DNA from: Bacteroidota bacterium | GTDB taxonomy: Bacteria > Bacteroidota > Bacteroidia > B-17B0 > Aurantibacillaceae | Assembly: GCA_963169355.1 (NCBI GenBank) | Contig: CAUJCR010000002.1 | Span: forward strand, 1 to 64,000 | Direction of reading: 5' to 3' | DNA: 64,000 bases | Shown: positions 33,847-57,165 of the stretch, in pieces | Position numbering within the stretch: position 1 is the stretch's first letter | How the letters are laid out: each line of letters starts with the position of its first letter | Position numbers and translations under genes: made by a program | The notes under the pieces: generated by a model | The model's database searches: none | What the model was told of the DNA's origin: nothing | Seen by the model: the letters and a program-made list of their open reading frames with translations, nothing else

Positions 33847-33885
33847 ATTAAACCCAGATTGTGTACTATTAAGGTTTTAGGATAC
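33847..33885. repeat. Partial copy of the 175-bp palindromic repeat (one end only)
   Basis: TTAAACCCAGATTGTG followed by TACTATTA matches the end of the repeats at 52873-53047 and 40938-41112, then the similarity fades. It lies directly after the terminator of the LamG protein. The rest of the gap, to 33948, shows nothing I recognise. Confidence 0.45.
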
Positions 33886-39992: not shown

Positions 39993-40000
39993 TAGATTTG
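39993..40000 (+). promoter_or_regulatory. -7 promoter element of the glycosyltransferase
   Basis: TAGATTTG, exact TAnnTTTG. Its last three bases are the TTG that opens the reading frame, so either this is not the active promoter or translation starts downstream at an unusual codon. Confidence 0.45.
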
Positions 40001-40978
40001 TGTATCCTAAAGAATAAAAACATATTTATTGCAGCGTTAGACTGGGGACTTGGTCATGCCACTAGGTGTGTGCCTTTAATTCAAAAACTGGCTACGCACA
40101 ATAACATTATTATTGGGGTTACACCAACAACACTCCCTATTTTTGAGGAGCATTTTCCTCAACTTAAAAAAGTAACGATTGAGGCTTATCATATTCGTTA
40201 TTCTACCATTATTCCACTCACCTTAAAATTGGCATTAGATAGCGCACGTATTTTAAGAGTTATTAAGCGCGAACATCAACAGTTAGCAGCTTATGTAAAA
40301 CAATACAAGATTGATGTTGTGATAAGCGATAATCGATTTGGTTTATGGAACAAGCATACGCATAACATATACATCACTCATCAACTTCAAATTAAGGCAG
40401 GTATTTTTTCGAAAATTGCAACTAAGATACACCATCGTTATATGAAACAGTTTCATGAAATATGGGTGCCCGATTATGAAGATGATGCTCAATCATTAGC
40501 AGGCGATTTATCTCGTCATAAAAATAAATTACACGTAAAATATATTGGCCCGTTAAGTCGGTTGGTGTTATTAAACGAAACCATCGAAAAACCAATTAAT
40601 TTCCTTTACTTATTATCAGGACCAGAACCATTAAGAACTCAATTAGAAGAACAGATTATACAACTAGCAAACCATTCCACTAAGAGTATTGTAATAGCAA
40701 GAGGCACCAAAAAACCGTTACCTACCTCCATGAAGCCTCATATTAAGTGTTACGATATGCCCGATGCAGCCACACTTTCTACATTAATTTGTGCAGCACA
40801 ACATATAATTTGCCGTAGCGGCTATAGCACTTTAATGGATTTACATCTGCTGCATAAAAAACAAATTACTTTAATCCCTACACCACATCAATCTGAACAG
40901 ATTTACCTTGCAAAATATTGGGCAACGAAATTTGGTATTAAACCCAAATTATGCATTAGCAATTTTATTACGAGCTAA
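39998..40978 (+). CDS. Glycosyltransferase, MurG/UDP-GT-like, 3' end built from a repeat
   Basis: About 326 residues. IFIAALDWGLGHATRCVPLIQ at the N-terminus, here seen as ALDWGLGHATRC, is typical of a GT-B family found in Bacteroidota. The C-terminal donor-binding part has LYLLSGPEPLRTQLEEQI, KPHIKCYDMPD and ICRSGYSTLMDL. The acceptor is unknown. The true start is unclear: the first in-frame TTG (39998) overlaps a perfect -7 element, and there is no ATG or GTG before ALDWG. The 3' end is odd: from base 40938 the coding sequence is part of the 175-bp repeat, so the last ~13 residues (KPKLCISNFITS) and the stop come from the element. Confidence 0.78.
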   Translation: MCILKNKNIFIAALDWGLGHATRCVPLIQKLATHNNIIIGVTPTTLPIFEEHFPQLKKVTIEAYHIRYSTIIPLTLKLALDSARILRVIKREHQQLAAYVKQYKIDVVISDNRFGLWNKHTHNIYITHQLQIKAGIFSKIATKIHHRYMKQFHEIWVPDYEDDAQSLAGDLSRHKNKLHVKYIGPLSRLVLLNETIEKPINFLYLLSGPEPLRTQLEEQIIQLANHSTKSIVIARGTKKPLPTSMKPHIKCYDMPDAATLSTLICAAQHIICRSGYSTLMDLHLLHKKQITLIPTPHQSEQIYLAKYWATKFGIKPKLCISNFITS

Positions 40979-41112
40979 AATCCCTGCAAAATATGAAGCT
41001 TCGCAACTTTTTCTCTTTCACCGTAGCAGTGGCTACGCTTCATTCATAAAAGTTCATATTTTATAGGGCTTTTAACTCTCACTACTAATTTCTAATACAC
41101 AATCTGGGTTAA
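40938..41112. repeat. 175-bp imperfect-palindrome repeat, copy B
   Basis: Starts TTAAACCCAAATT and ends AATCTGGGTTAA. The outer ~65 bases on each side are imperfect reverse complements (left GAGCTAAAATCCCTGCAAAA, right counterpart TTTTATAGGGCTTTTAACTC). The centre holds a smaller stem CGTAGC/GCTACG. By hand it is about 87% identical to the reverse complement of 52873-53047. It begins inside the glycosyltransferase gene and ends 84 bp before the 7TM-HD stop. No open frame and no transposase are present. Confidence 0.85.
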
Positions 41113-41195
41113 AACCATAAGTAACATCAGTGAGTTGAAATAATAAATAAAGCGTGGTGTATCTTCAGCTTATTATTAAAGCTATTAATTACAGG

Positions 41196-51382: not shown

Positions 51383-52801
51383 GTGCAACATATAAAAGCA
51401 TATTTCGATAAACTAGCAACTTCTAAAAAAGGAAGAGGCTTATCCAATTATTATTGGAAAGAAATTACTAATTATTGTAATTATTTTTCGCACGAAGATA
51501 GCTCGGTGCTTGAGATTGGCTGTGGAAGTGGAGATTTATTGGCTGGTATTGCTGGCAACAGAAAAGTGGGAATTGATTTTAGTGAAAAACAAATAGCTTG
51601 GGCAAAAGAAAAATATGCCAATACCTCTATTGAATTTTTGGTAATGGATGCTAATCACATCACATTAAACGAACAGTTCGATTACATCATTATTAGTAAT
51701 TTAATTGGCTTTGTAGATGATGTACAAGCGGTGTTTGAGCAAGTACAAAAGGTTTGTCATCCAAATACAAAAATAATTGTACAATATTACAACTCTCTGT
51801 GGGAGCCTGTTTTAAAACTTGCAGAAATAATTGGACTAAAAACAAAATCGCCATTGCAAAATTGGTTAAACTCCAAAGACGTTAATAATTTATTATTTGT
51901 ATCGGGCTTTGATGTTTATAGAAATAGTAAACGGTTTATTTTTCCATTATACATTCCTTTAATTGCCGAGCTGTTTAATTTAGTACTGGCCAAATTTCCA
52001 TTTTTCAGATTTTTTAGTTTAAACAATTATAGTTTCGCAAAACCGCTTCCGCAAAGTAATCAAGATGAATATAAAACAAAATATTCAACTACCGTAGTTA
52101 TACCTGCGCGTAACGAAAGTGGCAACATTGAAAACGCTATTACACGTTTACCAAAATTTGGCAAACACGTTGAGATTATTTTTATTGAAGGAAATAGCAC
52201 AGATGATACCTGGCAAAAAATACAAGAGATACAACAAAAGTATAAAGACACACACGACATAAAGATAGGACAACAAAAAGGAAAAGGAAAAGCAGATGCT
52301 GTAAGAGAAGGTTATAAAATAGCTACTGGAGATATTTTAATGATTTTAGATGCCGACCTTACTGTGCCACCCGAAGATATTCCAAAATTTTACGATGCCA
52401 TTGCAAGTAGCAAGGGAGATTTTATAAATGGTACTAGGCTGGTTTATCCAATGGAGAAAGAAGCGATGCGCTTTTTAAATTATTTGGGTAATCATTTTTT
52501 TAGTTGGGCTTTTACGTGGTTGTTAGATCAACGATTTAAAGATACCTTATGCGGCACCAAAGTAATGTTTAGGAAAGATTATATTAAGCTTACTAAAAAC
52601 AGAAAATACTTTGGAGAGTTTGATCCCTTTGGTGATTTTGATTTACTATTTGGTGCTCATAAATTGAATCTTAAAATAGTAGAAATTCCTATTCGTTACC
52701 GAGAAAGAACTTATGGTAGCACTAACATCTCTCGCTTTAAGCATGGTGTTATTTTATTACGCATGTGCGCCTTTGCCAGCAGAAAATGTAAGTTTATTTA
52801 A
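51383..52801 (+). CDS. SAM-dependent methyltransferase - family 2 glycosyltransferase fusion
   Basis: 472 residues, GTG start. N-terminal class I methyltransferase ~1-215: VLEIGCGSGDLLAGI binds SAM, with FDYIIISNLIGFVDD near the catalytic strand. C-terminal GT2, dolichol-phosphate-mannosyltransferase-like, ~230-472: TTVVIPARNESGNIENA, GKGKADAVREGYKIA, LMILDADLTVPPEDIPKFYD (metal-binding DXD) and FKDTLCGTKVMFRKDYI. No membrane anchor in this half. It probably modifies a polyprenyl-linked sugar or glycan, methylating and extending it in one protein (inference). Followed by a perfect terminator. Confidence 0.9.
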   Translation: MQHIKAYFDKLATSKKGRGLSNYYWKEITNYCNYFSHEDSSVLEIGCGSGDLLAGIAGNRKVGIDFSEKQIAWAKEKYANTSIEFLVMDANHITLNEQFDYIIISNLIGFVDDVQAVFEQVQKVCHPNTKIIVQYYNSLWEPVLKLAEIIGLKTKSPLQNWLNSKDVNNLLFVSGFDVYRNSKRFIFPLYIPLIAELFNLVLAKFPFFRFFSLNNYSFAKPLPQSNQDEYKTKYSTTVVIPARNESGNIENAITRLPKFGKHVEIIFIEGNSTDDTWQKIQEIQQKYKDTHDIKIGQQKGKGKADAVREGYKIATGDILMILDADLTVPPEDIPKFYDAIASSKGDFINGTRLVYPMEKEAMRFLNYLGNHFFSWAFTWLLDQRFKDTLCGTKVMFRKDYIKLTKNRKYFGEFDPFGDFDLLFGAHKLNLKIVEIPIRYRERTYGSTNISRFKHGVILLRMCAFASRKCKFI

Positions 52802-52823
52802 CCTACTAAAGACATAAAACAAA

Positions 52824-52855
52824 AAGGCTATCCTGATTTTTGGATAGCCTTTTTT
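52824..52855 (+). terminator. Rho-independent terminator after the fusion gene
   Basis: AAGGCTATCC, loop of 8, GGATAGCCTT: a perfect 10-bp stem followed by a T run. The A run on the left makes it bidirectional. Confidence 0.93.
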
Positions 52856-52872: not shown

Positions 52873-53047
52873 TTAAACCCAGATTGTGCATTAGAAATTG
52901 GTAGTGAGAGTTAAAATCCCTATAAAGTATGAAATTTTACGAATGAAGCATGGCCACTTCTAAGGTGAAAGAGAAAAAATCGAAAAGCTTCATATTTTGT
53001 AGGGATTTTAGCTCGTAATAGAATTGCTAATACGCAATTGAGGTAAA
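52873..53047. repeat. 175-bp imperfect-palindrome repeat, copy A
   Basis: Starts TTAAACCCAGATTGTG and ends CAATTGAGGTAAA. The two ~65-base flanks are imperfect reverse complements (AGTTAAAATCCCTATAAAG against TGTAGGGATTTTAGCTC). The copy is inverted relative to 40938-41112 and about 87% identical by hand. It fills the gap between the terminator and the stop of the Asn-rich gene: the element ends one base before that stop codon. No coding potential. Confidence 0.85.
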
Positions 53048-57091: not shown

Positions 57092-57124
57092 ACTTTTAAG
57101 TTAATAAGTTTAGCATTAGTCGTT

Positions 57125-57165
57125 CTTTTCTAGTTACAATTTTCTAATGCGCAATTTGGGTTAAA
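57125..57165. repeat. Partial copy of the 175-bp repeat (one end only)
   Basis: CAATTTTCTAATGCGCAATT followed by TGGGTTAAA matches the right end of copy B and the reversed left end of copy A. The rest of the palindrome is missing. It lies upstream of the SDR gene. Confidence 0.45.

Follow-up and report, generated by a model that had tools for sequence, protein, structure and literature searches.

A 166-bp palindromic MITE with IS1380-type ends in Bacteroidota and the conservation of its hairpin between element lineages

Two near-palindromic sequences, at positions 52873-53047 and 40938-41112 of a 64,000-nucleotide stretch (C2:1-64000, hereafter the window) of a Bacteroidota genome (G000, 3.2 Mb in 61 contigs), raise the question of whether such repeats are mobile elements or structures that serve the genes beside them. 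A sequence-only reading had described them as copies of the same length in inverted orientation with a palindromic fold. A blastn comparison confirmed the pair (88% identity across 167 bp, opposite orientation), and both copies were predicted to fold end to end, 52873-53047 as RNA (z = -8.6) and 40938-41113 as DNA (z = -8.2), with 0 of 200 shuffles as good in each case. The core of the element is a near-palindrome of 166 bp with a 5-bp target-site duplication (TSD) on either side, and the 175-bp coordinates first given correspond to this core together with its duplications. The element ends are 17-bp terminal inverted repeats (CCCARATTATGCATTAG), and its plus orientation is defined as that in which the GTGAGAG arm comes first. 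The following copies and possible remnants were located in the window:

52878..53043, plus strand: core of MITE copy 1 (R1 covariance model, 168 bits)
52873..52877, no strand: left target-site duplication of copy 1, TTAAA (from the sequence, by the 5-bp TSD rule)
53044..53047, no strand: right target-site duplication of copy 1, eroded to TAAA (from the sequence and from genome G018, which is without the element here)
40943..41108, minus strand: core of MITE copy 2, 166 bp (R1 covariance model, 197 bits)
40938..40942, no strand: left target-site duplication of copy 2, TTAAA (from the sequence; TSD table row L007)
41109..41113, no strand: right target-site duplication of copy 2, TTAAA (from the sequence; TSD table row L007)
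57103..57160, minus strand: short remnant with one element end, CCCAAATTGCGCATTAG at 57144-57160 (22.8 bits with R1)
33853..33869, plus strand: possible lone element-end remnant with 3 mismatches (TTAAA before it; behind a terminator)

Copy 1 is decayed (11% from the consensus, with 5 of 45 pairs broken) and copy 2 is near the consensus (2.4% divergent, with no broken pairs). The score of the remnant at 57103-57160 lies within the range of end-only matches, and the end match at 33853-33869 is weak (0.75 such matches are expected per window by chance). Rfam gave no match above the gathering score in the window, and for the element itself only low-score matches at chance level.

The covariance model, with places counted by hand, located the element at about 61 distinct places in the source genome, which is a lower bound since several places are cut at contig ends. 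The copy counts given here rest on searches that were capped in the number of candidates. When copies were aligned with their flanks, similarity ended abruptly at CCC...GGG. The sister genome G018, from the same genus, is without the element at both window sites. The repeat is thus far from being limited to two copies, and a segmental duplication is ruled out by the unrelated flanks of different copies and by the two empty sites. Exact 5-bp duplications flanked 41 of 84 candidate elements, as compared to 13 with shuffled flanks, and 6-bp duplications flanked none; since some of these candidates are decayed or spurious end pairs, the rate among intact copies is higher. Terminal target duplications of exactly 5 bp were therefore found where the sequence-only reading had proposed to look for them. 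They are A/T-rich (TTTAA, TTAAA, TTCAA, TTGAA, ATTAT and similar) and were also seen in two further genomes, G049 and G020.

Insertions into genes were also found, among them that of copy 2, which lies in the following gene:

39998..40978, plus strand: glycosyltransferase-like gene (PF13528 / PF04101; translations read by eye)

The insertion displaced the last 9 codons of this gene, which now has a different C-terminus and stop codon supplied by the element. With the flanks joined, the gene end reads ...FGIKTISNISELK, and the corresponding gene of G018 reads ...FGVKTLKNIIEL. The earlier description of both copies as free of coding content consequently fails for 40943-41108, which sits in the last codons of the gene. 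Other copies also interrupt genes, and at one locus (L022) cutting out the element with one duplication (TTGAA) restores a continuous HNH-nuclease frame (...CPICTEHYEIE joined to QMEGDHITPWHEGGK...; HNH identified by eye). The element is a MITE, non-autonomous and without genes of its own. Of the two identities considered beforehand, the MITE agrees with some 60 copies, 17-bp terminal inverted repeats, 5-bp duplications, empty sites and the IS1380 element with matching ends found in relatives, and the REP/BIME-like one is contradicted by the 166-bp length, the 5-bp target duplication and the DDE-type ends. A 71-bp derivative with an internal deletion and both ends retained was also observed in the source genome (L153 1629-1699; C18:9628-9698).

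A candidate mobiliser was identified in a related genome (G062), where an intact element of 1,401 bp (L097, from 832 to 2232) has the ends CCCAGATTATGCATTAG / CCCAAATTATGCATTAG with TTCAA at both sides and encodes a transposase of 437 amino acids that scores as a member of the IS1380 family (NF033539, 268 bits against a cut-off of 180). The ends and the 5-bp duplication of the MITE match those of this element. In G018 a broken fragment with 93% identity to this IS is left, including its right-hand end, and G049 has an IS copy carrying the element's ends. The end variant GCAATAG is common to the MITE and the IS of G049, and GCATTAG is found in the MITEs of G000 and G018 and in the IS of G018 and G062, which indicates that the end variant follows the resident IS. 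No similarity between the MITE interior and the IS was seen beyond the 17-bp ends. The expected transposase with matching ends was thus found in G062, along with the IS of G049, and was not found intact in G000. G020 has many MITE copies, and no such transposase was found there at all. The mobiliser of G000 could have been lost or could sit in an assembly gap, and common ancestry, not ongoing mobilisation, may account in part for the shared end sequence. Two candidates within G000 were rejected. The sole IS1380 remnant of that genome (L094 1480-2157, C47) is a truncated transposase fused to a perfect MITE right end and for this reason looked at first like the parent element; it belongs to a different IS1380 lineage, since its left end (CCGTAAACAGACAGTAG) is that of an intact IS of G008 (L096) with which it shares 89% identity. 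The PF01609 matches of G000 (L092, L093) lack the ends of the MITE. On Aliarcobacter plasmids, IS1380 transposases with about 51% identity to the L097 enzyme were also noticed.

Searches with the covariance model detected the element in 16 of 87 genomes, all of the same family, with large copy numbers in G000, G049 (at least 33 copies) and G020. Outside the family, matches of 61-91 bits came from Flavobacterium sp. BFFFF2, Cytophagales, Saprospiraceae and Bacteroidetes MAGs, names that are taken from the titles of MAG records and may be wrong. Five loci in this score range were accepted as homologous (L118, L137, L140, L122, L135). Elements that share only the ends or have an unrelated interior score 23-32 bits (L117, L121), so a weak score is insufficient for homology, and L142, L145 and L147, with weak scores, were left unassigned. 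In other Bacteroidota, the same 17-bp ends and 5-bp duplication enclose interiors of about 180-340 bp that are unrelated (L113, L114, L119, L124, L127, L133, L138, L139, L144, L146), so that a single IS1380 end sequence appears to be shared by several distinct MITE families. On a contig labelled Campylobacteraceae there is a 66-bp element (L121 3015-3080) that has almost identical ends and is flanked by an ATAAA duplication. Composite arrangements were observed as well. Subfamily B of G000 (L159, L160 with two copies, L162, L163, L165) is nested in a larger dispersed repeat that contains GGGCTGTTCGCGAAGCGCTT and, downstream, GCCTTGATTTTTTTGTAACTTTTTGTATCAAGACAAAAAG; L162 also carries a copy of this larger repeat without the element. 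Many G049 copies (L207-L235) have one end replaced by a common sequence, TGAGTTAGATGGAATTATGC, and in L098 (1000-1250) an extended unit with this sequence appears to have a TTAAA duplication of its own on both sides, as would be expected if the longer composite also transposes.

The hairpin is conserved between element lineages through compensatory changes. The alignment used for covariation comprised 23 copies from five genomes and 45 predicted pairs, of which 20 had changed at both sides while 95.3% of the cells remained paired, a result reached by 0 of 500 shuffles. Shifting the partner by 1-3 columns lowered pairing to about 40%. In pairwise comparisons between lineage representatives, which share lineages and are not phylogenetically independent, 152 of 188 double-changed pairs were still canonical, and between subfamily A and the G049 consensus all seven double changes keep pairing. 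Internal loops, such as GCGAAG, GAATGA and CGTAATAG, remain unpaired and are conserved like the stems (0.835 vs 0.841).

Within individual copies the picture is different. Private mutations in 40 subfamily-A copies of G000 amount to 0.444 per site at paired positions and 0.487 at unpaired ones, and pairing was kept after a private mutation in 10 of 40 cases (11.8 expected). The smaller set of G049 copies shows the same trend, and individual copies carry 0-6 broken pairs. Since pairing is kept in spreading lineages but not in inserted copies, selection appears to act on the propagating element and not on host use of each copy. Near-palindromes are hot spots for templated repair, and such repair would also yield double changes, so that the main alternative to selection on the element is a mutational origin of the covariation, by quasipalindrome template switching or gene conversion between the arms. 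We disfavour this explanation and consider it improbable, because the loops, which arm copying would erase, are conserved like the stems and because broken pairs persist in the copies without repair; nor would it be expected to produce the excess of G-U pairs over A-C mismatches between lineages (23 to 5). An exception is a copy common to G000 (L025 1505-1670) and G018 (L031 1505-1670), which differs by 2.4% between the two genomes, against 15% and 11% for the 300 bp on either side. Neutral decay alone does not account for this low divergence, which may reflect gene conversion between copies or recombination.

The placement of copies relative to genes bears on a function for the host. Among 43 copies of G000 with both neighbours called (gene calls being simple longest ORFs), 16 lie between convergent, 24 between tandem and 3 between divergent genes, and many lie 20 bp or less from a stop codon. 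Together with the strong fold (z = -8.6), these placements would suit a 3'-end element, that is, terminators or mRNA-stabilising hairpins kept by host selection. The sequence-only reading had gone in this direction, suggesting a conserved arm orientation and perhaps a 3' UTR function. Neither proposal was borne out. In both window copies each arm faces the 3' end of a gene, and among copies that face the 3' end of one neighbour and the 5' end of the other, the two arm orientations occur 14 and 10 times, the 16 convergent copies having the 3' ends of both neighbours facing the element. A strong terminator is already present in 9 of 34 measurable 3' spacers, including that of copy 1:

52821..52854, plus strand: intrinsic terminator between gene 51383-52801 and copy 1 (13-bp perfect inverted repeat, T-run)

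Several copies thus lie behind a gene's own terminator, the consensus is without a terminal U-run, and private mutations show no tendency to spare the hairpin, either in G000 or in G049. Moreover, both window copies are missing from the sister species, and most genomes of the genus have no copies. The location at gene ends fits avoidance of genes and promoters, which in combination with a TTTAA/TTAAA target would give the same distribution, and we consider maintenance by host selection very unlikely. Neighbouring genes include those with type IX secretion signals (Por_Secre_tail, CHU_C), as expected of Bacteroidota.

In all 13 representatives the plus strand folds better than the minus strand, by 2.5-18 kcal/mol, although these share ancestry and are not 13 independent events; distant representatives were oriented by sequence alignment and not by energy. 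The consensus energy is -28.8 for the plus and -11.3 for the minus strand. The preference of G-U pairs over A-C mismatches narrows to 11 against 4 when distinct columns are counted, and the strand preference of the fold is suggestive only. One reading of this asymmetry is that the plus strand is transcribed into a structured RNA needed in trans or in cis for mobilisation, with which the purine-rich conserved internal loops would also agree. However, shared ancestry and the few distinct columns weaken the asymmetry, single-stranded DNA would leave a similar signature, and Rfam matched neither the window nor the element, so that we regard this RNA as rather doubtful.

Taking these results together, the 166-bp MITE is probably moved in trans by DDE transposases of the IS1380 family, with a hairpin that serves the element's own propagation. 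The transposase would recognise the 17-bp ends, and insertion would take place at A/T-rich, TTNAA-like sites with duplication of 5 bp. The helices and internal loops of the fold-back interior would be kept in spreading lineages, with constraint released for each inserted copy. We infer both the action of the transposase in trans and the way in which the hairpin helps, which may be, for example, to bring the two ends close together or to provide a folded strand while the element is being mobilised. Mobility might even depend on a strand-specific, whole-length folded molecule (RNA or single-stranded DNA), which we consider possible but unlikely. If true, this would place a REPIN-like, structure-dependent mobilisation inside a classical target-duplicating IS1380 system.

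Comparison with known systems places the element among bacterial MITEs with some unusual traits. It resembles IS-related MITEs such as those derived from IS982 in Cardinium (PMC9769881), BrickBuilt of Porphyromonas (PMC4596501) and QMITE of Coxiella (PMC5896051) in being short, A/T-rich, non-coding and mostly intergenic, with IS-shared terminal inverted repeats, a target duplication and a foldable transcript, following the list of MITE features in a recent review (PMC10969869). This 2024 review of prokaryotic MITEs makes no mention of IS1380, and for this phylum names Porphyromonas and a spider endosymbiont (PMC10969869). Unlike these MITEs, the element is linked to the IS1380 family, shows no IS similarity beyond the 17-bp ends, has a whole-length hairpin with compensatory conservation and occurs in several Bacteroidota orders. 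In an incomplete search of the literature we found no IS1380-linked MITE of Bacteroidota, no report of this family and no printed end sequence.

REPs are repeats of 20-40 bp tagged GTAG/CGTC, associated with a RAYT (a Y1 tyrosine transposase) and without target duplication. For REPINs, which are REP doublets that form hairpins, selection on the hairpin of a miniature mobile element, with compensatory changes, has already been proposed, and mobility is linked to REP-associated tyrosine transposases (PMC3116915). The element shares with REPINs the conserved compensatory hairpin, the extragenic spread and a transposase encoded elsewhere, but differs from them in its DDE-type ends, its 5-bp target duplication and its greater length (166 bp). 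It is also like the Correia/NEMIS elements of Neisseria, foldable MITEs of 100-150 bp in many copies; these, however, have a TA duplication, another transposase family and an unrelated sequence.

The hairpins of MITEs are usually regarded as a by-product of their inverted repeats. Compensation between lineages without constraint within a genome points instead to selection on the mobile element itself, and the comparison of copy-level with lineage-level covariation is a simple way to separate selfish from host-serving structure in other repeat families.
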